In this document: piece after piece, positions 4,567 to 24,562 of the stretch
Position numbering within the stretch: position 1 is the stretch's first letter
Layout of the letters: every line of letters begins with the position of its first letter
Assembly: GCA_025360005.1 (NCBI GenBank)
Contig: JANYDA010000018.1
Coordinates: forward strand, 1-39,451
Source of the DNA: Fibrobacteria bacterium
Lineage (GTDB): Bacteria > Fibrobacterota > Fibrobacteria > UBA11236
DNA length: 39,451 nt
Direction: 5' to 3'
Notes under the pieces: generated by a model
The model's database searches: none
Seen by the model: the letters and a program-made list of their open reading frames with translations, nothing else
Told to the model about the DNA's origin: nothing
Made by a program: the position numbers and the translations under genes

Positions 4567-4767
4567 GGACCAGGTTCTGCAGGGCTCCAATTTGATTTCC
4601 AAAGTAGGTTCTGGCTTGGGGGACAACCGCACCCTTTCCCTTACCCGGGGAAATGGGGCTGACCATAAAAATTGGATCGGTAGGAATTATGCGTTTGATG
4701 CCCGCCGATAGTTCCAACGGCTTGAAATTCATCGTTCCCTGATAGGGGAGAACTTTTATTTCCGGCT
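4567..4767. other. divergent intergenic stretch between the ATPase fragment and the HAD/phosphoketolase operon
   Basis: No supported gene is seen. A reverse-strand frame starting at 4780 runs through here out of frame with the ATPase but shows no recognisable similarity. This space should hold the ATPase promoter and the upstream part of the operon promoter at 4768-4788. Confidence 0.4.
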
Positions 4768-4788
4768 GGGACGTCAGCAATTTATATT
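4768..4788 (+). promoter_or_regulatory. promoter-like pair shared with the N-ATPase operon (GGGAC, TATATT)
   Basis: GGGAC (4768-4772), ten bases, then TATATT (4783-4788). The N-ATPase operon has GGGAC, eleven bases, TATATT at 17763-17784. The spacing to the shared leader is also kept. TATATT is a reasonable -10, but no good -35 sits 17 bases upstream. GGGAC may therefore be an activator site or belong to a non-housekeeping sigma factor. Confidence 0.45.
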
Positions 4789-4939
4789 ACGACAGGACGG
4801 AGGAAACCCCTCGTCTCCGTCTCCCGACTTCCGGATCTTCCAGGCCGCCATGCGGCGATGGAAGCGCTGCAAGACCGCACCTCTGAGGCTTACCGTTTGG
4901 AAACGGGTCGGCAAACATTCGGAGATGGGAGGAATCAAG
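4789..4939 (+). promoter_or_regulatory. conserved structured 5' leader, copy A (upstream of the HAD-ackA-xfp-ldh operon)
   Basis: This untranslated stretch aligns over about 125 bases with 17785-17925, upstream of the N-ATPase operon. Shared blocks include CTCCCGACTTC, AGGCCGCC, CGCTGCAAGACC (4865-4876) and ACCTCTGAGG (4879-4888). Hairpin 1 is GACGGAG (4796-4802) with CTCCGTC (4815-4821). Hairpin 2 is GCCGC (4844-4848), CAT, GCGGC (4852-4856). In the other copy both hairpins exist with different bases, which favours selection on RNA structure. Length differences of two and three bases between copies and a lack of shared frame argue against a coding sequence. I do not recognise a known riboswitch class. 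Confidence 0.6.
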
Positions 4940-5593
4940 ATGGGGAAACTGGCTTCAATCACTTGCCTTTTCGTGGATATCGGCGGCGTTCTCCTGAGCG
5001 ACGGATGGGATCATCGCGCGCGCAAAAAAGCGGCGGCCCATTTCCGTTTGGAGTGGGCCGGAATGGAAGATCGCCACCGCATGGTATTCGATACCTACGA
5101 AGAAGGGAAGCTGACCTTGGAGGAGTACCTGGATCGGGTGATCTTCTACGCGAAGCACGCGTTTATGCGGGCGCAGTTCCGGAGTTTCATGTTCGCGCAA
5201 TCGCAGCCGCGGCCGGAGATGCTGGATCTCATTCTGCGGCTCAAGTCGCGGTATGGGCTCAAGATCGCCGCGGTCAGCAATGAAGCGCGGGAGCTGAACG
5301 CCTACCGTATCCGCACCTTCAAGCTGGATCGGATCGTGGATTTTTTCGTTTCCTCCTGTTACGTCCATCTCCGCAAACCGGATGCGGATATCTTCCGGCT
5401 CGCCTTGGACATAGCCCAAGTGCCCGCTTCCCGAATCGTCTATATCGAGAATACCGCCATGTTCGTCGGGATAGCGGAAGGCATGGGCATCAAAAGCATC
5501 CTCCATGCGGATTGGAAGACGACGCGCGCCCGATTGGCCTCGTTAGGGTTGCCCGACGATGGCGGAGAGAAGGGCGATCATGGCCCCGGCTGA
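4940..5593 (+). CDS. HAD-superfamily hydrolase-like protein
   Basis: The product has 217 residues when started at the ATG at 4940, which has GGGAGGA (4927-4933) at good spacing. Longer upstream starts would run through the conserved leader. Motif I is FVDIGGVLL with Asp13; the usual second Asp of DxD is Gly, as in a subset of HAD proteins, so phosphatase chemistry may be altered. AAVSN (motif II), RKPD with the motif III Lys, and YIENTAMFVGIAEGMG (motif IV, with EN in place of DD) follow. The substrate is unknown. It overlaps the start of ackA and is probably cotranscribed with ackA, xfp and ldh. Confidence 0.8.
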   Translation: MGKLASITCLFVDIGGVLLSDGWDHRARKKAAAHFRLEWAGMEDRHRMVFDTYEEGKLTLEEYLDRVIFYAKHAFMRAQFRSFMFAQSQPRPEMLDLILRLKSRYGLKIAAVSNEARELNAYRIRTFKLDRIVDFFVSSCYVHLRKPDADIFRLALDIAQVPASRIVYIENTAMFVGIAEGMGIKSILHADWKTTRARLASLGLPDDGGEKGDHGPG

Positions 5594-6785
5594 ACCCCTC
5601 ATCCTCACCGTCAACGGCGGTTCTTCGAGCATCAAATTCGCGCTGTTCGAAAATGACGCCGCGCCGCGGCGGATCCTGGCGGGCGCCATCGACAGGATTG
5701 GGCTGGCGGACGCCACTTTGAAGGTAACGGGTACGGATCAGACGGATACATTTGCGGGATCGGTAGCGGTTCCGGATTATGCGGCGGCGGTAGGCGCGCT
5801 GATGGATTGGATCCAAGGGAACGGCCGGGGCGGCGCCTTGGGCGCGATAGGGCATCGCGTGGTGCATGGCGGGCCAAACTACGGCAAGCCGCAGCGCATC
5901 ACGGCGGACATGATCGTGGAGCTGGGCCGGTTCAGCCCTTATGATCCCGAGCATCTGCCCCATGAGATCCTCTTGATGGAAACCCTGCAGCGCCGGTTCC
6001 CGGATTTGCCGCAAGTGGCTTGCTTCGACACGGCTTTCCACCGCCATATGCCGCGCGTGGCGAAACTGTTGCCGATCCCGCGACGGTATGAGGCGCAAGG
6101 GCTGCGCCGCTATGGGTTCCACGGCCTTTCTTACGCGTTCCTGATGGGCGAATTGGCGGCCATGGGCGGCGGCACGGAGCAAGGCCGCATTATCCTGGCG
6201 CATCTGGGCAGCGGGGCCAGTTTGGCGGCGGTGCATGCGGGCCGGCCTATGGACACGACCATGGGTTTCTCTCCCGCGGGCGGCTTGGTGATGGGGACCC
6301 GTTCGGGCGATTTGGATCCGGGGCTTATCTACTTTCTCGCGGATGGGGAGCACCAGAGCGCTGCGCAGTTCCAGCGCATGGTGAACCATGAGTCCGGGCT
6401 ACTGGGGGTCTCCGGATCGCATTCCGACATGCGCGATCTGATCGCGGGGGCGATCGAAGACGAGCGCGCCGCGGAAGCCGTGGAGCTTTTCTGCTATCAG
6501 GCCAAGAAAGGCATCGGCTCTTTCGCGGCCGTGCTGGGCGGAGTGGATACCTTGGTGTTCACGGCCGGCATCGGGGAGAACTGCCCATCCGTCCGCGCCC
6601 GCATTTGCGAAGGGCTCGGCTTTCTGGGGATCGAACTGGACGCGGCCCGCAACGCGGCGAACCTGCCCGTGATCTCCGCGGACGCCAGCGCGGTGCGGGT
6701 GCGCGTCATCCCCACGGACGAAGAACTCATGATCGCCAAGTCGGTGATCCCCTTTTTGGAAGTCGGCGCAAAGAAAGCAGCGTGA
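5580..6785 (+). CDS. ackA: acetate kinase
   Basis: Converts acetyl phosphate and ADP to acetate and ATP. The 401-residue protein has all family signatures: [17 protein letters not shown] at the N-terminus, [19 protein letters not shown] (catalytic Asp), [41 protein letters not shown] and FTAGIGEN near the C-terminus. The ATG at 5580 is preferred over 5559 because AGAAGG precedes it. It overlaps the HAD gene by 14 bases and abuts xfp, which makes its acetyl-phosphate substrate, so the pair forms a substrate-level phosphorylation step. Confidence 0.95.
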
Positions 6786-6787
6786 AT

Positions 6788-9151
6788 ATGAATAACGATA
6801 CATTGGATCCGGAACAACTCCGCAAGCTGGACGCCTACTGGCGCGCCGCCAATTACCTTTCAGTCGGCCAGATTTACCTCTATGACAATCCGCTGCTGAA
6901 GCGCCCGCTGGCGCCCACCGACATCAAGCGCATGCTGCTGGGGCATTGGGGGACCACTCCCGGCCAGAACTTCATTTACGCGCACCTGAACCGGGTCATC
7001 AAGAAATTCGATCTCAACATGATCTATGTCTCTGGCCCCGGGCATGGCGGCCCCGCCGTGGTGGGGAACACCTATCTGGAGGGCTCCTACAGCGAGGTCT
7101 ATCCGGATATCAGCCAGGATGAAGCGGGCCTGCGGAAACTCTTCCTGCAGTTCTCCTTTCCCGGCGGGATTCCCAGCCATGTGTCGCCGGAATGCCCGGG
7201 ATCGATCCATGAAGGCGGCGAATTGGGCTATTCGCTCAGCCACTCGTTCGGCGCCGTGTTCGACAATCCCGATCTGATCGTGGCTTGCGTGGTGGGCGAT
7301 GGGGAAGCGGAGACCGGGCCCTTGGCCACGGCCTGGCACTCCAACAAGTTCCTCGATCCCGTGGGAGATGGCGCGGTGCTGCCCATCCTCCATCTCAACG
7401 GGTACAAGATTTCCAATCCCACCTTGCTCGCCCGCATTCCGCGGGAGGAGTTGGAGCAATTGTTCCGCGGCTACGGATGGGAGCCTTATTTCGTGGCAGG
7501 GCATGAACCCGGGCCGATGCATCAGGCGATGGCGGCGGCCTTGGACATCGCCGTGAAGCGGATCAAGGACATCCAGCGCGACGCCCGCGCCCACGGCGCC
7601 GCCGAACGTCCGCGTTGGCCGATGCTGGTCCTTGATTCGCCCAAAGGCTGGACGGGGCCCAAGGTAATCGACGGCCGGCCCATCGAAGGCACTTTCCGAT
7701 CGCATCAGGTTCCGCTCTCGGATCCGGCTTCCAATCCGGAACATCTCAAGCTCTTGGAAGCATGGCTGAAAAGCTACCGTCCCGAAGAGCTTTTTGACGC
7801 GCAGGGCCGACTGAACGAGGGCCTGGCGGAATTGGCGCCCCGCGGGGACAGGCGCATGGGATCGAATCCGCATGCCAATGGGGGCGCGCTGCTCCGCGAT
7901 TTGCGGATGCCGGATTTCCGCGCCTACGCCGCGGCCGTGCCCTCGCCGGGAACGCCCGGCATCGGCGATACGCATGTGCTGGGCAAGTTCCTGCGCGATG
8001 TGGCGAAGCAGAACGCGGAGCAGAAGAATTTCCGCGTCTTCGGACCGGATGAAACGCTCTCCAACGGCCTGGAGGCCCTTTTCGATGCGACCAACCGGCA
8101 ATGGGAAGGTAAGCGCCTCGCGAACGATGAATTCCTGGCGCCCAGCGGCCGCGTGCTGGAAATGCTCAGCGAGCATCAATGCGAGGGCTGGCTGGAAGGC
8201 TATCTGCTCACGGGGCGGCATGGGCTTTTCAATTGCTATGAAGCCTTCATCCATATCGTCGACTCCATGTTCAACCAGCATGCCAAATGGCTCAAGGTCA
8301 CCGCGCGACTGCCCTGGCGCCGCAAGATCGCGTCCCTGAATTATCTGCTGGCTTCGCATGTCTGGCGCCAGGATCACAACGGCTTTACGCATCAGGATCC
8401 CGGTTTCATCGATCATGTGGTGAACAAGAAAGCGGAAGTGGTGCGGGTGTACTTGCCGCCGGACGCCAATTGCCTGCTGTCGGTGATGGACCATTGCTTG
8501 CGCAGCCGCCAGTATGTCAACGTGGTGATCGCGGGCAAGCATCCCGCGCCGCAATGGCTGGGCATGGATGCCGCGGAGAAACATTGCGCCGAGGGCATCG
8601 GCATCTGGAGATGGGCCGGCACCGATAAGGAGGCGGCTCCCGACGTGGTCATGGCCTGTTGCGGCGACGTGCCCACCTTGGAAACGCTGGCCGCCGTGGC
8701 CATCCTGCGCGAGCATTTGCCAGATCTCAAGATCCGCGTGGTCAACGTGGTGGACCTGATGAAATTGCAGCCGCACTCCGAGCACCCGCACGGATTGAGC
8801 GATATGGATTTCGACGAAATCTTCACCAAGGATAAGCCCGTCATTTTCGCCTTCCACGCCTATCCATGGCTGATCCACCGGCTGACGTACCGGCGCAGCA
8901 ACCATCATAACATCCACGTGCGGGGCTATAAGGAAGAAGGCACCATCACCACGCCTTTCGATATGACGGTGCTGAACGAATTGGATCGTTTTCACTTGGC
9001 CATGGATGCAATCGATCGATTGCCGCAGACGGGGGATAAAGGCGGCTACTTGAAGCGGCAGCTCAAGGACAAGCTGGTGGAGCATAAGCGGCACATCGAA
9101 AAGCACGGCGAGGATATGCCGGAGATCCGCAACTGGAAATGGCCGGTATAA
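6788..9151 (+). CDS. xfp: phosphoketolase (xylulose-5-phosphate/fructose-6-phosphate)
   Basis: Thiamine-diphosphate enzyme that cleaves xylulose 5-phosphate and/or fructose 6-phosphate with phosphate to give acetyl phosphate. It has 787 residues, typical for the family. Visible signatures are [20 protein letters not shown] (from residue 83), [18 protein letters not shown], and the thiamine-binding stretch [20 protein letters not shown] (GDG at 170-172). The C-terminal part includes [10 protein letters not shown] and GKHPAPQWL. The ATG at 6788 is preferred; a GTG at 6782 in the same frame overlaps the ackA stop and is an alternative. Substrate preference cannot be read from sequence. It sits directly between ackA and a D-lactate dehydrogenase. 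Confidence 0.95.
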
Positions 9152-10162
9152 ATGCGCGTCACCGTATTCGGTTCCAAGCAATATGAGCGCGCTTTGTTGG
9201 AGGATGCCGCGCGGGCCGCCGGCCACGTGCTGTCGCACCAATCGCAGCATCTGAATGCCGACACCGCGGCCTTGGCCGCCCGTTCCAGGGCCGTTTCGGC
9301 TTTCGTGAACGATTCCTTGAATGCGGAGACCTTGGAAATCCTGGCCAAGTGCGGCGTGAAAATGGTGGCTTTGCGCTGCGCCGGCTTCAACCAAGTGGAT
9401 GCCGCCGCAGCGGAAAGATTGGGAATCATCGTAGCCAGGGTGCCCGCGTACTCGCCCCACGCGGTAGCCGAGCATACCCTGACCTTGGCCTTGGCGCTGA
9501 GCCGGAAATTGTGCCGTGCCTACAATCGCATCCGGGAAGGGAATTTTTCCCTGGAGGGCATGTTGGGAACCGGCCTGTACGGGAAAACCGTCGGCATAGT
9601 CGGCACCGGGCGCATCGGCGCGGTGGCGGCCAGCCTGTTCAAGGGTCTGGGATGCAAGGTTGTCGGGTATGACGTGGTTCCGTCGCCGGAATGCCTGCGA
9701 TTGGGGATGACGTATCTGGCATTGCCGGATTTGCTGCGGACCGCGGATATCATCAGCCTGCATTGCCCCCTTACGCCGGAAACCAAGCATTTGCTTGGCC
9801 GCCGGGAGATCGCGCTGATGAAACCGGGGGCCATGCTGCTCAATACCAGCCGGGGCGGAGTGCTGGACGCCGGAGCCGTTATCGACGGACTGAAATCCGG
9901 GAGGATCGGAAACCTGGGGTTGGATGTGTATGAGGAGGAGGCGGACATGTTTTTCGAAGACCTTTCCGGCCAGGTGATCCAGGACGATGTCTTCGCGCGC
10001 TTGCTGACCTTCCCCAACGTGATCATAACCGGGCACCAGGGTTTCTTCACCGAAGAAGCCCTCGCCGATATCGTCCGCACGACCATGGCGAATATTTCCG
10101 AATTCGAAGGCACGGGGAAATGCGCCAACGCCATTCCCATCGCGAGGAAAGCCGCAGCTTGA
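9152..10162 (+). CDS. D-lactate dehydrogenase-like D-2-hydroxyacid dehydrogenase
   Basis: NAD-dependent reductase of 2-keto acids, most likely pyruvate to D-lactate, which would reoxidise NADH in the phosphoketolase pathway. It has 336 residues. RCAGFNQVD, the dinucleotide-binding GIVGTGRIG (about 148-156), SLHCPLTPETKHL, MLLNTSRGGVLD and GHQGFFTEEAL with the catalytic His are all as expected for the LdhA branch. The ATG begins one base after the xfp stop codon, so translation is coupled to xfp. The stop overlaps the region where homology to a magnesium P-type ATPase starts. Confidence 0.88.
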   Translation: MRVTVFGSKQYERALLEDAARAAGHVLSHQSQHLNADTAALAARSRAVSAFVNDSLNAETLEILAKCGVKMVALRCAGFNQVDAAAAERLGIIVARVPAYSPHAVAEHTLTLALALSRKLCRAYNRIREGNFSLEGMLGTGLYGKTVGIVGTGRIGAVAASLFKGLGCKVVGYDVVPSPECLRLGMTYLALPDLLRTADIISLHCPLTPETKHLLGRREIALMKPGAMLLNTSRGGVLDAGAVIDGLKSGRIGNLGLDVYEEEADMFFEDLSGQVIQDDVFARLLTFPNVIITGHQGFFTEEALADIVRTTMANISEFEGTGKCANAIPIARKAAA

Positions 10163-12370
10163 GCGCAGGCTTCCGCTTCCCGGGCCGAACGGGTTATCGG
10201 TCCTGGAAGCGGAAAACCGCTTGTCCAGGTACGGCCGCAATGAGGTGGGGGCGGAAAAGCAGGCGGGCTGGCCGACCTTCCTGTTCAACAGCCTTAAAAA
10301 CCCCCTGGCGATCTTGCTGGCGGTTTTATCCGGATTGTCTTTCGCGACGCATGATTACCGGGGCGGGGCCGTGATGGCCGCGATGATCGTCCTGGGCGTG
10401 TGCCTGCGGTTCGTGCAGGAGTTCCGCGCCGACAATGCCGCCGCCCGGCTCAAGGCTTTGATCAGCGTTACCACCAACGTCATCCGCGGCGGCGAGCCGC
10501 GGGAAATCCCCATCCACGATGTGGTTCCCGGCGACGTGATCCGCATAGCGGCGGGCGACATAGTCCCGGCGGACGTCCGCCTGCTCTCCGCCAAGGATCT
10601 TTTCATCACCCAATCCAGCCTGACGGGCGAGTCCCTGCCCGCGGAAAAGTTCGCGGATGCGGCCGCGGGCAAAAGCGTTTCGCTGCTGGACTGCTCCAAC
10701 CTGTGCTACATGGGAACCAGCGTGGAGAGCGGAACCGCGTCGGCGGTGGCGGTGGCGACGGGCGCGAAAACCTATTTCGGCGGTATGGCCAAGGCCATCA
10801 TAGGCGCCAAGGTGGAAACCAGTTTCGACAAAGGCCTTAAGGGTCTGACGCTTTTGATGCTGAAGTTCATGATGTTCATGGTCCCGGCAGTATTCCTCAT
10901 CAACGGGCTCACCAAGCATGAATGGAAGGGAATGAACACCTTGAAGCGGGTCCCGTTTCCGGCTATACGAAACTGGACGAAATCCCTTTCGACTTCTCGC
11001 GCAAAATGATGTCCGTGGTGGTGGAATCGCCCAAGCGGGAGCGCCTATTGATCACCAAGGGCGCGCCCGAATCCGTTTTCGCCCGCTGCAAACGCTTTGA
11101 GATGGGAGGCCGCGTAGAGGCGATGACCCCGGAACTGGAAGCCGGCGTCCGTGGGGAATACCAAAGCTTGAGCGCGGATGGATTCAGGGTGTTGGCCGTG
11201 GCCTATCGGAAAATGGATCCCCGCCCGGCATACGGGCGCGACGATGAGCAGGATCTGGTCCTCAGGGGATACTTGGCGTTTCTGGATCCTCCCAAGGAAT
11301 CCGCCGGCCCCGCCATCCAGGCCCTGAAGCGGCACGGCATTTCCATCAAGGTCCTCACCGGGGACAATGAGTTGGTGAGCAAGAAGATATGCCGCGACGT
11401 GGGTTTGGATGCCGGGACCATCCTGTTGGGCCCGGCGATGGAAGGCATGTCGGATCCGGAATTGGCGGCGGCCGCGGAAAAGGCCACCGTCTTGGCCAGG
11501 CTCTTGCCTTCGCATAAACAGAGGGTCATCCAGGCCTTGCAAGGGAACGGCCATGTGGTGGGGTTCATGGGCGACGGGATCAACGACGCTCCCGCCTTGC
11601 GGCATGCCGACGTGGGCATTTCGGTGGATACCGCCGTGGACATCGCCAAGGAATCCGCCGATATCATCCTGCTGGAAAAAAGCCTGCTGGTGCTGGATGA
11701 GGGCGTGCTCGAAGGGCGCAAAGTATTCGCCAACATCCTGAAATACATCCGCATGGGAGCCAGCTCCAGCTTCGGAAGCATGTTCAGTATGCTCGGCGCC
11801 AGCGCCTTCCTGCCGTACGTTCCCATGCTGCCCATCCAAATCCTGGCCAACAATCTGCTTTACGATATTTCCCAGGTCCCCATTCCCACGAACAATGTGG
11901 ACGCGAGCCAAATCGCCCTGCCCAGGCCTTGGGACATGGGGGAAATCCGGAAATTCATCCTTTACATCGGTCCGGTCAGTTCCCTTTTCGACTACTCCAC
12001 CTTCTTGGCGATGCTGTACGTCTTCAAATGCTGGGATCCGGCGCGCGCCGCTTTGTTCCATACTGGATGGTTCGTGGAATCGCTCTTGACGCAAACCCTG
12101 ATCATCCACGTTATCCGCACCAAGCGATTGCCCCTCATCCAAAGCCGCGCCAGCCTGCCCATCGTCCTGACCGGATTGGCGGTGATGGCTTTCGGAACGG
12201 CGCTGCCGTATTCCCCCCTGGCCGCCTATTTGGGTTTCGTGCCGCTGCCGTGGCGCTACTGGCCCATCTTGGCCGTTACGCTGGGATGTTACGTCACCCT
12301 GACGCAAGGGGTGAAAGCGTTCCTACTTCGCCAGGGGACGGGCTCCGTGCCCGTCTCCAGCGCAGCATAG
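10161..12370 (+). pseudogene. mgtA: MgtA-type magnesium P-type ATPase lacking its phosphorylation segment
   Basis: Family similarity starts at about 10185 (NGLSVLEAENRLSRYGRNEV), upstream of the only candidate start seen (TTG at 10221), so the N-terminus looks lost. The first frame carries the membrane entry, actuator domain and TGES loop (SSLTGESLPAEKF) up to LINGLTKHEW near 10920. The second frame picks up at KLDEIPFDFSRKMMSVV and runs to 12370 with TGDN, GDGINDAPALRHAD and the C-terminal membrane domain. The segment between, which in MgtA holds the PEMLP helix and the DKTGT aspartate (roughly 150 residues), is absent and the frame is shifted. The pump cannot form its phosphoenzyme. It lies just after ldh in the same direction. 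Confidence 0.88.
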
Positions 12371-15038
12371 CCAGCTTCCGGCCTTCTTCCATTAGGAGAA
12401 AGACGAAGGGATAGCAGGCCAGCAGCGCCCAATGGCGCCATTGCAAGGGCGCGAGGCCGAAAATCCCCGCCAGGGGGCGCACGTGGATCAGAAGCAGGAC
12501 CAATGTCATCTCCGTAACGATTGCTCCCCAAATCCAAGGGTTCCGCCGCTTGAGGCTGAAAACGGAGTAGCGCGAGCTGCGGCAGGCGAAAACGTTCCCG
12601 ATCTGGCACGCTACGATTCCGGCCAGGGAAAGGGTCACAGCCTGCTTATACACCATGCCCGCGGCCGCCATGGGCATGCCGGGCCTCCATCCGGACAGCC
12701 AATACGCGTAGAAGAATCCGCCCAGGCAGAACACGGCCTGGATCCCGCCCAGCCAGGCATAAGCGCGCAGCAGGGTTCCGGGATTCAGCAACCTGTCCTT
12801 GCGGGATCGCGGGGGACGCGTCATGACGTCCGGCTCGGCGGATTCCATTCCCAGCGCCAAGGCGGGCGCCATATCGGTCCCCAAGTCGACGGCCAGGATC
12901 TGCATCACGTTGAGCGGGAGCGGGATGCGGAAGAGGGCGAAAGCCAGGAAAGGGACCAGCTCGGAAACATTGCTGGCGAATATGTAGGTCACGAATTTCC
13001 GCACGTTGTCGTACACGGTGCGGCCTTCCTGGACCGCGGTCACGATAGTCCCGAAATCATCATCGCGCAGCACCATGTCCGCCGCCGCGCGCGCTACTTC
13101 CGTTCCCGCTTTGCCCATGGCCACGCCGATGTCCGCTTGCTTCAAGGCCGGCGCGTCGTTGACGCCGTCGCCCGTCACCGCCACCACCTCACCCAGCCGC
13201 TGGAAGGCTTCTACCAACCGCAGCTTATGCTCCGGTTTCACGCGGGCGAAAAGCAGATCCGGGGACGTCAGCAGCGCGTCGAGGGCGGGATCGTCGAGTC
13301 CGTCCAGATCGCGGCCGGTAACCACGCGCGGGGCGGTTTCGCCCATGCCGATTTCCAGGGCGATGGCCGCTCCGGTCAGCCCACTGTCGCCGGTGACCAT
13401 ATGCACGCGGATGCCGGCGGAACGGCAGGCACGTAACGCAGCGGGTACGGAGGCGCGGGGCGGATCCTCGAATCCGACATACCCCAACAGCGTCAAATCC
13501 TTTTCGGTTTCATCGCGCAGCAAGCCGCCCGGATCGTCCATGGCGGGAGGAAGCTCCCGGCTCGCGACCGCCAGGACGCGGAAGCCTTTGCGGGCGAGGG
13601 TTTCATAGGCCCGCTGCGACGTTTCCAGGGCATCGCCGGGCAAGGGGGCGTCCGCGCCGTCGCTGCGGACATAGCGGCAGCGGGCAAGGATTTCCTCGGG
13701 CGCGCCTTTCACGCATGCGAGCAATCGCTCCCCTTGCCGATGCACCGTGGTCATGCGTTTGCGCGCCGAGTCGAAGGCGAATTCCCGCACGCGCGGCAGG
13801 GCCGCCTGCAGGTCCGGAGGATTCCCCGCGATCAAGGCCGCTTTCCAGATGGCGGCGTCGGTGCCTTCCTGCACGCGCCGGGCGGCGCTGGCGCCGGCGG
13901 TATTGTCGCTGCATAGCGCCGCGATGAGCAGAATGCGCTTCTGCGCTTCCGGAGCGGCGGCCTGCCATGCCTCCGCCCCCGGAGCCCACACGGCGCGCAC
14001 GGCCATGCGATTTTCGGTGAGGGTTCCGGTTTTATCCGTGAGGATGACCGTGGTCGCGCCCAGGGCCTCCACCGCCGAAAGCCGGCGCACCAGGGCTTCG
14101 CGGCGGGCCAGGCGGCGCACGGCCATGGCCAGCGATAGCGTGAGCGTGGGCAACAGCCCTTCCGGAACGTTGGCGACGATGACGCCGATGGCGAACAGGA
14201 AGGCGTCCACCATGCGCATATGCATTGCCAATACGCCGAGGGCCCCGAAGGAAATCCCCATGCCCACGGCCAGCAGGGTTACCACGCGCGTTACCCCTTG
14301 CAGTTCCCGTTCCAAGGGGCTGGGTCGCTCGCGCTGCCGCGCCGTGAGCCACGCGATGCGTCCGAACTCGGTGTCCTTGCCGGTCGCGAAGACCAGGGCC
14401 CGCCCCGTGCCTTCCGCCACCGACGTTCCCGCGAATACGATGTTGGCGGGAAGCGCCGCCTCTTCTTCCTTGGCTGTCGGTGCCGCGACGCAGGCTACCG
14501 AGCGGGATTCGCCGGTGAGGCTGGAAAGATCGACGCGGAGATCCTCCGCGAACGCGATGCGGGCATCGGCCGGGATCAGATCGCCCGCGCGCAGGAAAAC
14601 GAGATCGCCGACGACCACCGCTTCGGCGGGGATTTCGCATTCCAAGCCATCGCGTTGGGCCCGCACCATCACGGGGAGCATGGCTTCCAAAGCCTCCATG
14701 GCTTTTTCGGCTTGGAACTCCTGCCAGAAACTGAAGGCTCCGTTCAAGAGCACCACGGCCGCGATGGCCACGGCGAGCGAGGGCATGCCCGCCAGAAACG
14801 AGAGCAGCGCCGCGACCCAGAGGAGGAGGGCGAAGAAATGGATGAAATGGGTGGGAAGGATCTTATACCACGGTTTCCGGACCGCCGCGGAAATGATATT
14901 CCGCCCCTGGCTTTGCAGTCGCCGACCCGCTTCCTCCTGGGTAAGGCCGGATTCCGCGACCGCGAGTTCCCGGCGCAGATCGTCCAAGGAATGCCGCGCC
15001 GCGTTCTTCCAGCGGGCTTCCGGCTGCGCCGCCATCAA
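12294..15038 (-). CDS. cation-transporting P2-type ATPase
   Basis: A 914-residue P-type ATPase of the calcium or sodium/potassium-like branch. An N-terminal cation-ATPase domain precedes the actuator domain with LTGES (about 174-178). The ion-site helix has VANVPEGLLPT (from 289), the phosphorylation loop is DKTGTLT (335-341), and the hinge is TGDGVNDAPALKQADIG. The C-terminal helices include SNVSELVPFLAFALF and LAVDLGTDMAPALALGME, a pattern seen in Na,K-ATPase-like pumps, so Na+, K+ or Ca2+ are all possible. Its start overlaps the RND gene stop by four bases, so they are coupled. Its 3' end overlaps the mgtA pseudogene by 77 bases in convergent orientation. Confidence 0.9.
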   Translation of the reverse strand: MMAAQPEARWKNAARHSLDDLRRELAVAESGLTQEEAGRRLQSQGRNIISAAVRKPWYKILPTHFIHFFALLLWVAALLSFLAGMPSLAVAIAAVVLLNGAFSFWQEFQAEKAMEALEAMLPVMVRAQRDGLECEIPAEAVVVGDLVFLRAGDLIPADARIAFAEDLRVDLSSLTGESRSVACVAAPTAKEEEAALPANIVFAGTSVAEGTGRALVFATGKDTEFGRIAWLTARQRERPSPLERELQGVTRVVTLLAVGMGISFGALGVLAMHMRMVDAFLFAIGVIVANVPEGLLPTLTLSLAMAVRRLARREALVRRLSAVEALGATTVILTDKTGTLTENRMAVRAVWAPGAEAWQAAAPEAQKRILLIAALCSDNTAGASAARRVQEGTDAAIWKAALIAGNPPDLQAALPRVREFAFDSARKRMTTVHRQGERLLACVKGAPEEILARCRYVRSDGADAPLPGDALETSQRAYETLARKGFRVLAVASRELPPAMDDPGGLLRDETEKDLTLLGYVGFEDPPRASVPAALRACRSAGIRVHMVTGDSGLTGAAIALEIGMGETAPRVVTGRDLDGLDDPALDALLTSPDLLFARVKPEHKLRLVEAFQRLGEVVAVTGDGVNDAPALKQADIGVAMGKAGTEVARAAADMVLRDDDFGTIVTAVQEGRTVYDNVRKFVTYIFASNVSELVPFLAFALFRIPLPLNVMQILAVDLGTDMAPALALGMESAEPDVMTRPPRSRKDRLLNPGTLLRAYAWLGGIQAVFCLGGFFYAYWLSGWRPGMPMAAAGMVYKQAVTLSLAGIVACQIGNVFACRSSRYSVFSLKRRNPWIWGAIVTEMTLVLLLIHVRPLAGIFGLAPLQWRHWALLACYPFVFLLMEEGRKLAMLRWRRARSPSPGEVGTLSPLASG

Positions 15039-17605
15039 GGGGCTCCGCCGGCCAGGACTTCATCGTCGCGGATGAATTTCATCGCCAACCAAGGCGTCAA
15101 GCCGAGCGAGGTGACGAGAATGGCGGGCAGCCCGATCACGGCGAATTTCCCGATGCTGGCTATGCCCAGGTGGGAGGTGAAGAGCATGCCCACGAATCCC
15201 GCGGCGGTGCTCAAGGTGCACACCGCCACCAGCAGGCCGATGCCGGAATAAAGCTCCCACAAGCGGTGCCGGCCCAAGCGGAGGTAGCCCAAAAGCAGGT
15301 AGGTGCACACGTCCACGCTGTAGTCCTGCAACGTGGTGATGACGATCAGGTTGAAGACGCCGACCTTGACGTGGAACAGGCCCATCAATCCCAAGGTCCA
15401 AATCACGCCTACGGCCATTTCGATGCCGCAGATGAGCAGCAGTTTGCGGCTGCGCAGGATGAGGCCCAGCAGTAGCAATAGGATGACCGCCAAACAGGCG
15501 AAGAGCTTCCGGCTGTCCGCCTTCACGATGCGCGTGATATCGCTGAAGACGAAGCTGGAGGAATACGCGCTGAGATGTTCGCCGTTGACGTCGAAGTGCC
15601 CGTACCGATCCTGGAATTTCCCGGCTTCGATGGCGTTGGAGGAATTGTAATTGCCGTATATGAATCCGATCTTGCCGAATGAGCCGTCCCTTTCGCGCAG
15701 GAGATTGGCCGCCCAGGCCGGGATGTCCGCGCTGGAAAATGCCGCGGTTTGGCCGAGCTTGCGGAGCTTGGCGATCACGGCAGAGTCATCGCCGCCGGCA
15801 TGATCGAAAATCCGCTTTCCCGCGCTGGCGGCGATGGCGTGGATATACTCCATGCGCATCCTCTGCGAGTCCGCAGGAGGCACGAAGGTGGTGAGCGTCA
15901 GGAAACTCCGTAATAAAGGATCCTTCTCCACGGTCAGGCGCTGGAACAGGGTGTCATGCAATGCGGCCATGGCGGCGGAGTCGCGCGCCAGCACCACTAC
16001 AGGCTGGCTGCTGGTGCGATGGCTGTTCAAGGCGACGCTCACGGGAAGATGGCGCTCCGACTTCTGGTGCGTGTCGCGCAATTTATCGAAGTCGTATTCG
16101 AACCTCACCCTGGGCACGAAGCAGGCCAGGATCAAGGTTCCCGCCCCGATCACCGCGGCCGAGAACGGGACGATTTTACGGGAGCCTTGCTTTTTAAGCC
16201 AGACCGGCATGCGCAGCGGCGCGTGCCTGGAAACCAGGGACGGCCATATCCTGGGAAGTTTGGCGTGCATGCTTTCCCAGGTGAAAATGAAGGAAGGCAT
16301 GATCAGGAAGGTGGAGATCAGGCTGAGGGCGACGCCGATGCTGGCGAGGATCCCGAATTCATAAAAACCCACGAACTTGGAAACCAGCAATGTCAGCAAC
16401 CCGGCGATGGTGGTGGCGGCGGATACGATCAAGGAGAAGAACAAGGCATCCAGCGCTTCCTCCAAAGCCTCGATCCAGCTTCGTCCCGCGCTCACTTGCC
16501 GCTGCGCGTACCCCAGCACATAGGTGAAATAATCGATGCCCATGCCGAACAGGATGGAAATGACGAAGACGGTGTAAAGATTGAGCCGGCCGTAGGTCAA
16601 AGCGGTCAGGGCCAAGGTGAGGATGCATGTGAACGCGGCTTGCCAACCCAGCAGCAGCACGGGCGCCGCGCTGCGGAAGTAGGCGAACAGGATCAGGATA
16701 TTCAAAGCGATGGAGATAACGGTGGCGATCATGCCATTGCGGGAAAGCGAGTTGACTTCTTCCAATTCCCGGTACGGCCCTTCCACGCCGATGCTCAAAG
16801 CGCTTCCGTAGCGGCTTTGCGAAGGCCCCAGCAGGGCTTTCGATCGCGCGAGCACGGTCTTCACATAATCGATATCGGAACTCGGGTATTTCAGCACCGC
16901 TTGCACCAGGCCCACGGTTTTGCCTTCTCGGGTTTTGCCCATGAGGCGCGCCCGCAAGCGGGCCGGAATCCCTTGCTTGGGATCGAATTCGCCCGGCGGC
17001 GCCGGCCCATTTTTGCCCGCTTGGAAAAATGCCGTGAACGCATCCGCGGCCTCGTCGGGCAATCCCAATTGCTGGGGAAGATCGGCCTTGAACCATTGCA
17101 GGGGAGGGGCTTTCCGCGCAGGCAAGGAGTCGTCGCTCAGCAGATCGACGCCTAAGGGCGTCCGGTTCCCCAGGTCCAATTCCACCTGTTTCAATTTTCC
17201 CAGAATATCCTTGAGGTAAGCGGAAGGCAGATAGAGCAAGGCATGCTGTTCAAAGAAAGCGTTATCGCGCGCCACCTGGGAATAGACCAGGTCCGGCCAA
17301 TCCTTTTTCAGGGTGGAATCGATTTCGTCCTGGATGCGGGCCACCGAGTCCGCATCGTCCATGACGATGGCGATGGTGAATAAGTCCGCGCTGCCGAACC
17401 GCTTGTTCGTTTCCCGCAGGGCCCGGAAGGTTTCCGTTTTCCGGGGAAGCAGGGATTCCAGATCCGGATCGAGGCGGATTTTCAAACTGACGAAGAAGGC
17501 CGCCGCGCCGAGCAACAGGGAACAGGCCACCACGGCCTTGCGGCGCTTGAACGCGAAATCCAAATAGGCCCGGACGAAAAGGCGCTTCGTTGTCACTTCG
17601 GGCAT
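15035..17605 (-). CDS. RND/MMPL-superfamily exporter
   Basis: An 856-residue inner-membrane protein. The start MPEVTTKRLF is chosen because GGAG lies about nine bases upstream, and because the longer frame would add 68 residues of non-membrane sequence overlapping the N-ATPase leader region. Topology follows the family: one helix near residues 20-40, a large periplasmic loop beginning IRLDPDLESLLP, a bundle of five helices, a second helix after KKQGSRKIVPF, a second loop, and a final bundle near the C-terminus. Such proteins export lipids or hydrophobic compounds; the cargo is unknown. It heads a two-gene operon with the P2-type ATPase. Confidence 0.85.
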   Translation of the reverse strand: MPEVTTKRLFVRAYLDFAFKRRKAVVACSLLLGAAAFFVSLKIRLDPDLESLLPRKTETFRALRETNKRFGSADLFTIAIVMDDADSVARIQDEIDSTLKKDWPDLVYSQVARDNAFFEQHALLYLPSAYLKDILGKLKQVELDLGNRTPLGVDLLSDDSLPARKAPPLQWFKADLPQQLGLPDEAADAFTAFFQAGKNGPAPPGEFDPKQGIPARLRARLMGKTREGKTVGLVQAVLKYPSSDIDYVKTVLARSKALLGPSQSRYGSALSIGVEGPYRELEEVNSLSRNGMIATVISIALNILILFAYFRSAAPVLLLGWQAAFTCILTLALTALTYGRLNLYTVFVISILFGMGIDYFTYVLGYAQRQVSAGRSWIEALEEALDALFFSLIVSAATTIAGLLTLLVSKFVGFYEFGILASIGVALSLISTFLIMPSFIFTWESMHAKLPRIWPSLVSRHAPLRMPVWLKKQGSRKIVPFSAAVIGAGTLILACFVPRVRFEYDFDKLRDTHQKSERHLPVSVALNSHRTSSQPVVVLARDSAAMAALHDTLFQRLTVEKDPLLRSFLTLTTFVPPADSQRMRMEYIHAIAASAGKRIFDHAGGDDSAVIAKLRKLGQTAAFSSADIPAWAANLLRERDGSFGKIGFIYGNYNSSNAIEAGKFQDRYGHFDVNGEHLSAYSSSFVFSDITRIVKADSRKLFACLAVILLLLLGLILRSRKLLLICGIEMAVGVIWTLGLMGLFHVKVGVFNLIVITTLQDYSVDVCTYLLLGYLRLGRHRLWELYSGIGLLVAVCTLSTAAGFVGMLFTSHLGIASIGKFAVIGLPAILVTSLGLTPWLAMKFIRDDEVLAGGAP

Positions 17606-17762
17606 TTTATTTCGGCTCCGGGCTGTGGACTGCGAGGCGGGATGCAAGTTCCGGCTATGCCCAACATAGGTGGATCCGCCCCCGTCTACAAGACAAATCG
17701 GGCCTGGTGGAAAAAACCAATTTTCCTGGTTATCTTCAATAGCCGCAAACTTAAACCCGCAC

Positions 17763-17784
17763 GGGACCCTTTCAAACATATATT
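17763..17784 (+). promoter_or_regulatory. promoter-like pair of the N-ATPase operon (GGGAC, TATATT)
   Basis: GGGAC at 17763-17767 and TATATT at 17779-17784, eleven bases apart. The same pair precedes the phosphoketolase operon (4768-4788). The remaining upstream stretch (17606-17762) shows no gene and must also hold the divergent promoter of the RND gene. Confidence 0.45.
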
Positions 17785-17986
17785 GGGTCCAGGCGGGGGA
17801 ACCCCTCACTCACGCCTCCCGACTTCAGGATTTCCCAAGGCCGCCCCGGCCCGGAAACGCTGCAAGACCCGATACCTCTGAGGATTGCCGTTCGCAACCT
17901 GAAGCGGCATACGCTCGCGGAACGGGACGGATCATGGTTTGTTGTCCCTGCATCCGCACAATCACGATGAAAGACAGGAGCCGGAT
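17785..17986 (+). promoter_or_regulatory. conserved structured 5' leader, copy B (upstream of the N-ATPase operon)
   Basis: Homologous to 4789-4920. Shared blocks are CTCCCGACTTC, AAGGCCGCC, CGCTGCAAGACC (17858-17869) and ACCTCTGAGG (17874-17883). Hairpin 1 here is AGGCG (17791-17795) with CGCCT (17813-17817). Hairpin 2 is GGCCG (17839-17843), CCC, CGGCC (17847-17851). Both occupy the same places as the hairpins of copy A with compensating base changes. About 60 further bases lead to the first start codon and are not shared. Confidence 0.6.
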
Positions 17987-18271
17987 ATGAAAAACGGAAA
18001 AATCCAATATGAAACGCGCGAAAGCGTCCTGGAATTGCTGTCCGATGATGAAGTCGCCACCGTAAGCACCGCGGAGACGGCAGGACGCCTGCTCGAAGAC
18101 GATGAATACCTAGACTTGGATCGGCTCGATCAAGGCGTGCAAAGGGCGATTGGGACCGCTCCCAAAATGGGAAGCGTGCTTCCCAAGAAGGCGATCCGCT
18201 TGGAGACTTGGAGCAAGATATTGGCGCGCCTGGACGGCCACGGAATCGGCAAGACCGACGCTTCTGCGTAA
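17987..18271 (+). CDS. small protein of unknown function, first gene of the N-ATPase operon
   Basis: A 94-residue soluble, acidic protein starting at an ATG with AGGAG at 17976-17980. It has no signal peptide or membrane segment. A run of acidic residues (LLEDDEYLDLDRLDQG) occupies the middle, and a basic helix (KKAIRLETWSKILARLD) lies near the C-terminus. I do not recognise a family. Its position between the conserved leader and a receiver-domain gene suggests a regulatory or adaptor role for the operon, which is inference only. Confidence 0.65.
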   Translation: MKNGKIQYETRESVLELLSDDEVATVSTAETAGRLLEDDEYLDLDRLDQGVQRAIGTAPKMGSVLPKKAIRLETWSKILARLDGHGIGKTDASA

Positions 18272-18309
18272 ACCCCTAAGGATTGGCCCTTGATGGGCCG
18301 GAGCATCGG

Positions 18310-20120
<1,811 letters not shown>

Positions 20121-20121
20121 C

Positions 20122-20526
20122 ATGCCGCAACCGCTGATGCACCTCAAGATCCTCCTGCCCTTCGGGATCTTCGCGGACAAGGCCGACGTCACGCGCATCG
20201 TGGCGGAGACGCGCGCGGGCTCGTTCGGATTCCTGCCGCGCCGGCTCGACTGCGTGGCGGCTTTAGCGCCGGGAATCCTGGTCTACGAAACGGAAGCGGA
20301 GGGCGAGGTTTTCACTGCGGTGGATGAAGGAGTACTGATCAAGACCGGCGCGACCGTACTCGTTTCCGTGCGCGGCGCACTGAAGGGATCGGATTTGGGG
20401 CGCTTGCGCCAGGCCGTGGAAAAGGAATTCCTGAGCCTGGATGGAAACGAGAAAAGCGCGCGTTCGGTCATGGCGAAATTGGAGACGGGATTCCTGCACC
20501 GGTTCGCGGCCATTCAGCATGGATGA
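20122..20526 (+). CDS. atpC: N-type ATPase subunit epsilon
   Basis: A 134-residue central-stalk subunit with the beta-sandwich pattern ILLPFGIFADKADVTRIVAET, FGFLPRRLDCVAALAPGIL and VFTAVDEGVLIKTGATVLV. It follows atpD after one base and its last codons overlap atpQ by eight bases. The C-terminal helical part is short, as is common in this ATPase class. Confidence 0.9.
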   Translation: MPQPLMHLKILLPFGIFADKADVTRIVAETRAGSFGFLPRRLDCVAALAPGILVYETEAEGEVFTAVDEGVLIKTGATVLVSVRGALKGSDLGRLRQAVEKEFLSLDGNEKSARSVMAKLETGFLHRFAAIQHG

Positions 20527-20887
20527 GAGCATAGATAAGGCGGACGGGAAGAAAGGCGGGACGGCCGGGGGGAAAGCCGGATCCGGACTCGGCTTCGCCG
20601 CGCAAGTGGGCGCCCAAGCGGCCCGCAAGCTCAAGGCGCAAAGGCATCCCGCCCAGGGGGTGTGGTTCGGCTTGGGCATGATGGGGCTCATCGGCTGGTC
20701 GGTGGCGGTCCCCACCGTAACAGGCGCGTTACTGGGGCTGTGGCTGGACGGGCATCATGCGGGCAAGCATGCCTGGACCTTGCCCCTCCTAGCGGCCGGG
20801 CTGGTGCTGGGATGCGCGAACGCCTGGCGCTGGGTGGCCAAGGAAGATGAAGCGATGCGCGCTGAGGAGGAGAGCGGCGATGCATGA
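20519..20887 (+). CDS. atpQ: N-type ATPase subunit AtpQ (AtpI-like)
   Basis: A 122-residue protein with two membrane helices (about GVWFGLGMMGLIGWSVAVP, and PLLAAGLVLGCANAW), a GALLGLWLDG turn between them and a Lys/Gly-rich cytoplasmic N-terminus. This is the AtpI/AtpQ-like family, associated with ATPase assembly. It overlaps atpC and atpR, in the canonical N-ATPase order. Family knowledge gives the name; its exact function is not established. Confidence 0.85.
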   Translation: MDESIDKADGKKGGTAGGKAGSGLGFAAQVGAQAARKLKAQRHPAQGVWFGLGMMGLIGWSVAVPTVTGALLGLWLDGHHAGKHAWTLPLLAAGLVLGCANAWRWVAKEDEAMRAEEESGDA

Positions 20888-21188
20888 AACCCTGGTTCTG
20901 GTATCCGCGTGGATGGCCGGCACCGTCTTAGGTGCGTTTTTTTTCGGCGGCCTCTGGTGGACGGTGAGGGCGGGCATCGCTTCGCGGCAGCCCGCATTAT
21001 GGTTCCTAGGAAGCCTGCTGGCGCGGATGGCGATGGCCTTGTCCGGATTGTACCTGGTTTCCGACCACCACTGGGAAAGGCTATTGGCTTGCCTGCTGGG
21101 TTTCATCACGGCCCGCGTCGCCGTGAACCGCATGATCCGGTCTCCGGAAAACGCGCTGCGCGCGACGGGGGCCGGAAATGCGGCTTAG
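20880..21188 (+). CDS. atpR: N-type ATPase subunit AtpR
   Basis: A 102-residue protein with three predicted membrane helices (LVSAWMAGTVLGAFFFGGLW, a second from ALWFLGSLLARMAMALSGLY and a third near LLACLLGFITARV). It occupies the slot unique to N-ATPase operons between atpQ and atpB. Its start overlaps the atpQ stop and its end overlaps the atpB start by 11 bases. Confidence 0.85.
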   Translation: MHETLVLVSAWMAGTVLGAFFFGGLWWTVRAGIASRQPALWFLGSLLARMAMALSGLYLVSDHHWERLLACLLGFITARVAVNRMIRSPENALRATGAGNAA

Positions 21189-21882
21189 CTCCGACGAACT
21201 GGTTTTCTGGCGGCACGGATTCATCAAGGTGAATGGCACCTTGGTATATACTTGGGCGCTGATGCTCGTGCTGGCGGTGGGCTCCAAGCTCGTCACGCGC
21301 AAGCTCTCCGCCCATCAGGAACGATCCCGCTGGCAAAACCTGTTGGAAATGATCGTCATCGCGATCGGCAAGCAAATCGAAGAGATCGGACTGCGCGATG
21401 CGGGCAAGTATCTGGGCTTCCTGGGCACGCTTTTCCTGTTCATCGCCGCGGCCAACCTTGGCACCGTCATCCCGGGCTACGAGCCGCCCACCGGATCGCT
21501 GTCGACCACGGCGGCGCTCGCCTTATGCGTGTTCATAGCCGTGCCCTTTTACGGCATCGCCGATCGCGGCCTGGGCGGCTATCTCAAATCCTACCTGGAG
21601 CCGACGCCCATCATGCTGCCGCTCAACATCATCAGCGAGCTTTCCCGCACCTTGGCCATGGCCGTGCGCCTGTTCGGCAACATGATGAGCGGGACCATGA
21701 TCATCGCCATCCTGCTCACCATCACTCCCTTCCTGTTCCCGATCGTCATGACGGCGCTGGGCCTGCTCACCGGCATGGTGCAAGCCTACATCTTCAGCAT
21801 CCTGTCCGCGGTCTACATCGCCGCCGCCACGCGCCCCGCGGGCCCGGAACCGATCCCGACCCCGATTCCGCGAACGGATTGA
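21178..21882 (+). CDS. atpB: N-type ATPase subunit a
   Basis: Stator membrane subunit with the ion half-channels. It has 234 residues and multiple helices. The essential arginine is in the stretch ELSRTLAMAVRLFGNMMSG. It starts inside the atpR 3' end. A Pro-rich tail (PEPIPTPIPRTD) closes the protein. Sequence of the a subunit alone does not settle proton versus sodium coupling. Confidence 0.93.
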   Translation: MRLSSDELVFWRHGFIKVNGTLVYTWALMLVLAVGSKLVTRKLSAHQERSRWQNLLEMIVIAIGKQIEEIGLRDAGKYLGFLGTLFLFIAAANLGTVIPGYEPPTGSLSTTAALALCVFIAVPFYGIADRGLGGYLKSYLEPTPIMLPLNIISELSRTLAMAVRLFGNMMSGTMIIAILLTITPFLFPIVMTALGLLTGMVQAYIFSILSAVYIAAATRPAGPEPIPTPIPRTD

Positions 21883-21909
21883 ACCACCTAGCCAACCAAG
21901 GAAACCGAA

Positions 21910-22191
21910 ATGGACTACACCAGCCTGATCGCCGTCGCCTCGATCATCACCGCCGGATTCACTACCAGCATCGGGTGCATCGCGCCCGCGTTGGGGGAGG
22001 GGCGTTCCGTCGCGACGGCATTGACCGCGCTGGCTCAGCAGCCGGACGCTTCCGCTACCATAACGCGCACCCTGTTCATCGGCTTGGCCATGATCGAATC
22101 GACGGCCATCTACTCTTTCGTGGTCTCCATGATCCTCATCTTCGCCAATCCGTTCTGGAACCACGTCATCGCCCAGGCCGCGGGGAAATAA
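21910..22191 (+). CDS. atpE: N-type ATPase subunit c, two-carboxylate form
   Basis: Rotor ring proteolipid of 93 residues, two helices. The ion site in helix 2 is IESTAIY (Glu63, Ser64, Thr65, Tyr68), the motif of sodium-binding c subunits. In helix 1, GEG at 29-31 places Glu30 where sodium rings such as that of Ilyobacter tartaricus have Gln. This two-carboxylate site is typical of N-ATPases; a published c17 ring of this class from Burkholderia was reported as proton-specific, so the coupling ion is open. AAGGAAA precedes the ATG. Confidence 0.93.
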   Translation: MDYTSLIAVASIITAGFTTSIGCIAPALGEGRSVATALTALAQQPDASATITRTLFIGLAMIESTAIYSFVVSMILIFANPFWNHVIAQAAGK

Positions 22192-22194
22192 CCC

Positions 22195-22965
22195 ATGCTC
22201 ATCGATTGGTTCACGGTCGGCGCGCAAGCCGGTAACTTCCTGATCCTGGTGTGGCTGCTGAAGCGGTTCCTGTACAAACCCATCCTGGCGGCCGTCGATA
22301 CCAGGGAGAAGCGGATCGCCGCCGCCATCGCGGACGCGGAAGCGGGGAAATCCCTGGCCCAAAAGGAGCGCGATGAGTTCCGGAACAAGAATGAGGCCTT
22401 CGCCGCGGAACGCGCCGCCCTTTTCGCCCGCGCCGGCGAGGAAGCCAAGGCCGAAGGCGCCAGGCTGCTGGCCGAAGCCCGCGGGGCCGCCGATGCCTTG
22501 AGCGCCAAGCGCGGCGAGACGCTGAAACGCGACGCCGCGAACCTGCACCAGGCCATCGTCCGCCGCACCCGGCAGGAGGTGTTCGCGGTCGCGCGCAAGG
22601 CACTGGCGGATTTGGCCGCGGTAGGCTTGGAGGAACGCATGGCCGAAGTATTCATCCGCCGCTTGGGGGAAATGGACGGGGCTTCCAAATCGGTTTTCGC
22701 GGAGGGATTGCGATCCGCTTCCGTCGCAACGCCCGTGTTGGTGCGCAGCGCCTTCGATCTGCCGGCGGCGCCGCGCGCGGCCATCCAGCAGGCCGTCAAT
22801 GGAGCCTCAGCGGCGGAGATCCCGCTCCGCTTCGAGGCTGCGCCCGATCTGGTGGGCGGCATCGAGCTTACCGCCAACGGGCAAAAGGTGGCCTGGAGCA
22901 TTTCCGAGTATCTGGCTTCCCTGGAGAAGAGCATCGTGGAGGTAAGCGATGGAGCGGTCGCCTGA
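22195..22965 (+). CDS. atpF: N-type ATPase subunit b with delta-like C-terminal domain
   Basis: A 256-residue peripheral-stalk protein, against about 156 for a standard b subunit. One membrane helix lies near residues 8-28, followed by a long charged coiled coil rich in Ala, Glu and Arg. The last 60 or so residues ([20 protein letters not shown], then LASLEKS) resemble the C-terminal domain of delta subunits (G-x-x-x-x-x-G-x-x-x-x-x-S, then a leucine helix). No separate atpH gene is present, so this tail probably replaces delta in binding the head. It overlaps atpA by 17 bases. Confidence 0.9.
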
Positions 22966-24562
22966 AAATTTGCAAGAGGTTTTTGATCGCGCCTTCGCCG
23001 GGATCGATCGGACATTGTCGGGCTTCGCGCCGCCGATGGCGCCGCGCGAGGTGGGGGCGGTGACTTCGGTTTCCACAGGCATCGCTACCGTTTCCGGCCT
23101 TCCCGGGGCGGGCAGCGAGGAATTGCTCCGCTTCCCGGGCGGCGTGTCCGGCATCGCCTTCAACGTGGACGAGGAGGAGATAGGCGTGGTGCTGCTCGGC
23201 GAGTATGGGCATCTGCAAGCGGGCGACGAAGTCGAGCGCACCGGCCGCGTCATGGACGTGGCTGTGGGCGATGCCTTGCTGGGGCGCGTCATCGATCCAC
23301 TCGGCCGCCCCGTGGACGGCTTGGGGCCCATCGCCTGCGAAGAACGCCTGCCCATCGAACGGCCGGCCGCGCCCATCATGGAACGCGCCCCTGTCACCGT
23401 GCCGCTGCAAACCGGCCTCAAGGTAGTCGACGCGCTCATTCCCATCGGCCGCGGCCAGCGCGAATTGATCCTGGGCGATCGGCAGACGGGGAAGACCGCC
23501 ATCGCCCTCGACACCATCCTCAACCAAAAAGGGCAGGACGTTCTCTGCGTATACTGCGCCATCGGCCAACGGGCTTCCGCGGTGGCCAAAGCCGTGGCCG
23601 TGCTCAGGGAAAAGGGCGCGTTGGAATACACCGTGGTGGTGGTGTCCGAAGGCAACGATCCTCCCGGGCTCGCCTATATCGCGCCCTATGCCGCAACCAG
23701 CATCGCGGAGCATTTCATGGAAAAGGGCCGCGATGTGCTGATCGTTTACGATGATCTCACCCAGCATGCGCGCGCCTACCGCGAGCTTTCCCTTCTGCTC
23801 CGCCGACCGCCGGGGCGCGAGGCTTTTCCGGGAGACATCTTCTACATCCATTCCCGCCTGCTGGAACGGGCCACGCGCTTGCGCCCGGAACGCGGGGGCG
23901 GATCGCTAACCGCCTTGCCCATCATCGAAACCGAGGCCCAGAATATCTCCGCGTACATCCCCACCAACCTAATTTCCATCACCGACGGGCAAATCTATCT
24001 CTCGCCCTCCCTGTTCGAACTGGGCCTGCTGCCCGCCGTCGACGTCGGCAAATCCGTGTCCCGCGTGGGCGGCAAGGCGCAACGGGCCGCTTACCGGGAC
24101 GTGGCCGGCGATCTCAAGCTCGCCTACGCGCAATTCGAAGAACTGGAAACCTTCGCGCGCTTCGGCGCGCGTCTGGACGAGGCTACGCAGACAAGCATCG
24201 CCCATGGGAAACGCATCCGGGCCTGCCTGAAGCAAGCGGAATCCTCGCCCGTTCCCGTGGCCGCGCAAATCGCGGTGCTGGCGGCTTTGACCGCCGGTTT
24301 CTTCGATCCGGTGCCGATGGAACACATGCCGGACGCGGAAAAAGCCGTCCAGGACGCGTCGAAAAGCATCCCGGCGGAAATCCTCTCGCGTTTCGAAACC
24401 GCCGGCAAGCTGGATAATGCGGATCGGAAAGCGATCCTGGACATGGCCGATCGATCGTTGCTGCCGTTCAGATCCGGGCCCGCGGGTCCGCCCCAACCGG
24501 AAACGCCGGCGCCGCTCGTTACCCCGGCGGCGGCCCCTCTCAAGGCGAAGGCGGCCGCTTGA
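22949..24562 (+). CDS. atpA: N-type ATPase subunit alpha
   Basis: Non-catalytic nucleotide-binding subunit of 537 residues. Walker A is GDRQTGKT (176-183); [45 protein letters not shown] and [10 protein letters not shown] are all conserved. The C-terminus carries a Pro/Ala-rich extension (after [11 protein letters not shown]) not usual in F-type alpha. The start overlaps atpF, and the stop overlaps the atpG TTG. Confidence 0.94.

Follow-up and report, generated by a model that had tools for sequence, protein, structure and literature searches.

A candidate structured leader RNA shared by the ackA-xfp and N-ATPase operons of a probably mobile energy module in a Fibrobacteria bacterium

The current analysis concerns a stretch of DNA of 39,451 nt from a Fibrobacteria bacterium, referred to here as the window, which encodes two plus-strand operons. 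By Pfam assignment, the first of these (operon A) has the gene order HAD-ackA-xfp-D-ldh and the second (operon B) is an N-ATPase operon that includes AtpR, in agreement with the gene identities given in a first-pass annotation of the sequence. The principal coding features are as follows.

4940-10162, plus strand: operon A (Pfam)
4940-5593, plus strand: HAD gene (Pfam)
5559-6785, plus strand: ackA (Pfam)
6605-9151, plus strand: xfp open reading frame (Pfam)
9152-10162, plus strand: D-2-hydroxyacid dehydrogenase gene, D-ldh (Pfam)
17934-17990, plus strand: putative 18-codon open reading frame MVCCPCIRTITMKDRSRI after leader copy B, its stop overlapping the start of the next open reading frame (sequence)
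17987-25449, plus strand: operon B (Pfam)
17987-18271, plus strand: first small open reading frame of operon B
18283-18711, plus strand: receiver-domain protein gene of operon B (Pfam)
18708-25449, plus strand: N-ATPase genes atpD, atpC, AtpR, a, b, alpha and gamma of operon B (Pfam)

The putative 18-codon frame is cysteine-rich, and its start is located where copy B has the homologous ribosome-binding region. Between the two operons lie opposite-strand genes for a P-type ATPase and an MMPL-family protein. The cation-transporting P-type ATPase located 3' of ldh is split between two overlapping frames (10221-11009 and 10922-12370), which could be due to a frameshift, a pseudogene or an assembly error, and a second P-type ATPase gene is intact (12294-15038, minus strand). 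Furthermore, TrbL-, CagX- and TrbI-like conjugation proteins are encoded on the same contig (30918-36719). The module is therefore probably carried by a conjugative element, and the contig is probably part of a conjugative plasmid or an integrative element.

The stretches 4768-4920 (copy A) and 17763-17915 (copy B) were read and aligned, and all of the conserved blocks listed in the first-pass annotation are found there, at the positions it gave. The homologous leader comprises ~100 bases (4795-4895 in A and 17791-17890 in B); in both cases it is intergenic, directly upstream of the first gene of its operon and 3' of a conserved TATATT. When copy A was used as a blastn query against the whole 4.98 Mb genome, copy B aligned with 78% identity over 96 nt (E 1.1e-10), and only copy A itself and copy B count as real matches. 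A third match of 33 nt on another contig (C21; E 0.008) has no leader blocks nearby and was dismissed as chance. Local alignment of copy A against either strand of the 39,451-nt window yielded a score of 87 for copy B versus 33 for the best other stretch. The similarity spans the region from the TATATT box to the ribosome-binding region, which is reached at lower identity in the local alignment (GGGAGGAATCA in A and GGGACGGATCA in B), and includes a low-identity tail (GGGAGGAATCAAGATG in A and GGGACGGATCATG in B). Conservation is blockwise, with 10-12 identical bases between divergent stretches and flanks without similarity, and among the shared blocks are CTCCCGACTTC (at 4821 and 17816), CGCTGCAAGACC (at 4865 and 17858) and ACCTCTGAGG (at 4879 and 17874). 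Indels between the blocks are 1-2 nt in length and no reading frame is conserved, so we rejected the possibility that the leader is a coding sequence. At the level of sequence comparison, A and B are thus confirmed as copies of one leader whose homology exceeds chance, as had been proposed for two stretches followed by non-homologous genes. The features of the two copies are listed below, with helices and hairpins as predicted.

4768-4788, plus strand: copy A, conserved box GGGAC-N10-TATATT (pattern scan)
4783-4788, plus strand: copy A, TATATT, a plausible -10 element (pattern scan; no sigma-70 consensus pair)
4795-4822, plus strand: copy A, helix P1, GGACGGAG/CUC-CGUCU (structure-aware alignment, pair count)
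4805-4812, plus strand: copy A, conserved P1 loop AACCCCUC
4821-4831, plus strand: copy A, block CTCCCGACTTC, the P1/P2 junction and start of P2 (alignment)
4828-4873, plus strand: copy A, helix P2, CUU, CGG, CUUCC / GGAAG, CUG, AAG (fold-and-align)
4844-4856, plus strand: copy A, inner hairpin P3, GCCGC/GCGGC (fold-and-align)
4865-4888, plus strand: copy A, conserved CGCTGCAAGACC and ACCTCTGAGG (alignment)
4927-4932, plus strand: copy A, Shine-Dalgarno GGGAGG of the HAD gene, ATG at 4940 (sequence)
17763-17784, plus strand: copy B, GGGAC-N11-TATATT, with TATATT at 17779-17784 (pattern scan)
17791-17817, plus strand: copy B, helix P1, AGGCGGGG/CUC-A-CGCCU (structure-aware alignment, pair count)
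17800-17807, plus strand: copy B, conserved P1 loop AACCCCUC
17816-17826, plus strand: copy B, conserved block CTCCCGACTTC (alignment)
17823-17866, plus strand: copy B, helix P2, CUU, CAG, UUUCC / GGAAA, CUG, AAG (fold-and-align)
17839-17851, plus strand: copy B, inner hairpin P3, GGCCG/CGGCC (fold-and-align)
17858-17883, plus strand: copy B, conserved CGCTGCAAGACC and ACCTCTGAGG (alignment)

In a structure-aware alignment of A and B made by hand, the predicted fold consists of 24 pairs arranged in three helices, namely P1 (8 pairs), P2 (11) and the inner hairpin P3 (5). Each of the 24 pairs forms in A as well as in B; five of them are changed on both sides and three are A-U/G-U exchanges. It had been claimed that two hairpins, the second of which is P3, keep their pairing with changed bases, and this is borne out by the pair counts. 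The longer stem P2, which surrounds the second hairpin, shows covariation of its own and was absent from the earlier description; its consensus is CUU-CRG-YUUCC / GGAAR-CUG-AAG, interrupted by internal loops and a bulged C. The unpaired blocks AACCCCUC (P1 loop), CCCGA (P1-P2 junction), ACC (3' of P2) and ACCUCUGAGG are all invariant. A candidate pseudoknot between CCUC of the P1 loop and GAGG of the last block is neither supported nor opposed, since neither side varies.

The single-sequence minimum free energies of the two copies are not unusual compared with shuffles (z about -1), and for this reason a LocARNA-like fold-and-align score was devised. In the corresponding nulls, one copy was kept intact, while the substituted letters of the other were redistributed over the same mismatch columns. 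Based upon the unbiased MAFFT alignment, the observed score was matched by 0 of 300 nulls in either direction. With the structure-aware alignment, 0/1000 and 1/1000 nulls matched it, and the outcome was the same with random substitutions. A simpler column-shuffle control was only moderate (21/500). The reverse strand scored 9459 versus 13743 on the plus strand, and the wobble pairs are sensible only for RNA read from the plus strand. Within the limits of two sequences, the null tests and the lower reverse-strand score support selection for a fold on the strand that is transcribed, and the secondary structure of this sequence pair appears to be kept by compensatory change.

The upstream box GGGAC-N10/11-TATATT has two matches in the window (0.01 expected by chance) and three across all 4.98 Mb of the genome, where the additional one is within a gene, and the distance from TATATT to P1 is 6 nt in both copies. 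The first-pass annotation had described these elements as a promoter-like pair. The shared GGGAC and TATATT boxes do exist, but GGGAC is only 10 or 11 nt from TATATT and therefore does not qualify as its -35 box, and no sigma-70 -35/-10 pair with a 16-18 nt spacer was found in 4600-5000 or 17600-18050. Consequently, the pair amounts to at most a -10-like box. On the plus strand, no intrinsic terminators were found in either leader. A second ackA-xfp locus in the same genome (contig C29), whose xfp extends to the contig end, contains AACATATATTGG shortly before ackA (L029, 9319-9330), the same 12 bases as those around the TATATT of copy B. We considered this locus as a third leader copy and rejected it, as only the AACATATATTGG box is similar and there is no leader.

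A covariance model built from A and B recovers the pair at 104 and 98 bits and detects no further copy in the rest of the genome or in 295 relatives. None was detected with lax filters in 36 relatives either, where the best other match had an E of 1.5; weak matches in two relatives (G002 and G007), with genome-wide E values of 1.5 and 8.8, are attributable to chance. The model likewise found no copy among 168 genomes of the phylum, copy B had no blastn match in plasmid and phage records, and plasmid regions carrying xfp or N-ATPase relatives are without the leader. When 84,980 species were scanned for the exact pattern CCCGACTTC-N24..54-CGCTGCAAGAC, 25 matches were returned, which is about the chance expectation; all of these are in stop-free frames and none yields a substantial full-length match to the model (best E 0.045, located elsewhere on one contig). 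As the scan required exact blocks, diverged relatives could have been missed. Among viral contigs, 28 pattern matches without a model match were discarded, as were two more within one conserved coding sequence and four more without a match. Within the collections searched, the leader is known from two loci of one genome only. The first-pass annotation had proposed a covariance-model search of this kind and had named a lack of copies beyond the two loci as refuting its candidate, and no such copies turned up in these collections. Since no further copies were found, a new riboswitch class is a possibility and not a finding.

Comparisons with known RNAs point in the same direction as the earlier statement that no known riboswitch class matches. 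Rfam 15 has no match in the window at the gathering threshold, and a cmscan of both loci with E values up to 5 places no Rfam 15 family in the leader. The short leader core GCGCUGCAA resembles the core of the SAH riboswitch, which is a lead only; copy B has ACGCUGCAA instead, there is no Rfam match at E up to 5, and the downstream genes are unrelated to methylation. Protein-bound leaders, such as ribosomal-protein-type and CsrA-type targets, are alike in presenting hairpins and invariant single-stranded blocks before a ribosome-binding site and are likewise common to co-regulated operons; however, no known consensus was recognized in A or B and Rfam offers no match. In functional terms, the nearest analogue is the Na+-I riboswitch (DUF1646 motif), a structured 5' leader tying ion state to energy genes, which is located ahead of ATP synthase or V-type ATPase genes in certain species (PMC9337991). 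Unlike the present case, no ackA-xfp association is mentioned for it in the portions of that source considered here (PMC9337991), and the leader has no covariance-model match to it at E 5. The N-ATPase of Burkholderia pseudomallei is H+ coupled, so an N-ATPase need not pump Na+ (PMC5376962). In the literature searched, there is no link of N-ATPase with phosphoketolase and no shared post-transcriptional control of the ackA-xfp and N-ATPase modules.

When examining the distribution of the downstream genes, relatives of xfp are found on many plasmids, with 84 of 241 typed conjugative. In a genome of the same genus, ackA-xfp adjoins N-ATPase genes on one contig (C48), and the two modules are also neighbours on plasmids of Methylophaga thalassica and Polymorphobacter. 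It is because of this proximity elsewhere that shared control is plausible. The homologous operons of the same-genus genome are without the leader, and the HAD gene there directly follows another gene. On the M. thalassica plasmid (NZ_CP143310.1), an unannotated N-ATPase beta-like sequence is located just after ackA-xfp. With the modules close together in other genomes and the operons apart in the window, a shared leader would presumably give joint control.

The main rival to an RNA-level function is one exerted by the DNA itself, in which an extended promoter/operator (GGGAC-TATATT plus downstream protein sites, e.g. CCTCTGAGG) would be recognized by one transcription factor and the hairpins would be incidental to GC-rich DNA. 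The upstream box is indeed also shared and occurs essentially nowhere else in the genome, CCTCTGAGG is an invariant perfect 9-bp palindrome, and neither the minimum free energy z-scores of only about -1 nor a ribosome-site occlusion not above shuffles distinguishes the leaders as RNA. Against an operator, the substitutions keep pairing to a far greater degree than permuted ones do, especially on the plus strand, and G-U pairs are among those kept. In addition, the spacing of the blocks shifts by 1-2 nt and helical phase would change with it, and the conserved stretch of about 150 bp is long for an operator, so we consider this explanation somewhat unlikely.

The presence of both copies on a single 39 kb contig that also has conjugation genes, and nowhere else in the collections searched, could also reflect a promoter-leader duplication inside a mobile element that has no special RNA function, the similarity being residual ancestry. 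In which case, the blockwise rather than even conservation (10-12 identical bases), the changes that preserve pairs and the loss of flanking similarity would all be unexpected, rendering a simple duplication improbable. A still more doubtful scenario involves a trans-acting small RNA, which would either target the leader or be derived from it. This scenario draws upon the C-rich single-stranded AACCCCUC and CUCCCGA, which resemble Shine-Dalgarno-binding loops and belong to C-rich unpaired blocks that are invariant in both copies, whereas no terminator is found 3' of either copy, no partner RNA was identified, and there is no Rfam match in the window; we regard it as very unlikely.

An RNA reading is the one we favor, and our best reading of the two loci is a lineage-restricted cis-regulatory leader RNA that co-controls the acetyl-phosphate/N-ATPase module, which is itself probably mobile. 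To the specific claim that A and B are one structured cis-acting 5' leader RNA co-setting both operons of this module, we assign a probability of roughly 0.6. The leader probably constitutes an RNA control element that has not been described before, here a two-copy candidate in a single genome. From the earlier interpretation as a whole, the shared leader, the fold kept on the transcribed strand, the missing Rfam counterpart and the linked modules stand, whereas the promoter pair and the expectation of further copies do not.

Several features of such a leader RNA can be proposed. Transcription of each leader would start from the shared upstream element (the TATATT box), P1 would be located at or near the RNA 5' end, and the long irregular stem P2/P3 would follow, flanked by the invariant single-stranded AACCCCUC, CCCGA, ACC and ACCUCUGAGG, with the leader ending at the ribosome-binding region. 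Its action would most likely be in cis and after transcription start, upon either translation initiation or mRNA stability. Attenuation by intrinsic termination is unlikely, as neither leader has a terminator. One signal or one RNA-binding factor would presumably set both the production of acetyl phosphate and ATP by ackA-xfp and the ion pump formed by the N-ATPase. The CUCCC in the conserved block of copy A is predicted to pair with the Shine-Dalgarno GGGAG, and the predicted Shine-Dalgarno-paired and P1-formed ensembles are ~1.2 kcal/mol apart; in copy B, CCCG is predicted to pair with CGGG just 5' of the start codon. However, the ribosome-binding region is not paired more than in shuffled leaders (137/300 and 70/300), and consequently ribosome-site sequestration was not retained as the mechanism and this mode of action is a guess. 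It is improbable, though conceivable, that the leader represents an undescribed riboswitch-like class sensing an energy- or ion-related signal and jointly setting the phosphoketolase/acetate-kinase ATP supply and the N-ATPase on a mobile element.

Because the genome itself supplies a natural counterpart for either copy, it is possible to design compensatory mutants and leader swaps directly. If real, this leader RNA without an Rfam counterpart would couple an ATP-driven ion pump to the fermentative supply of ATP.
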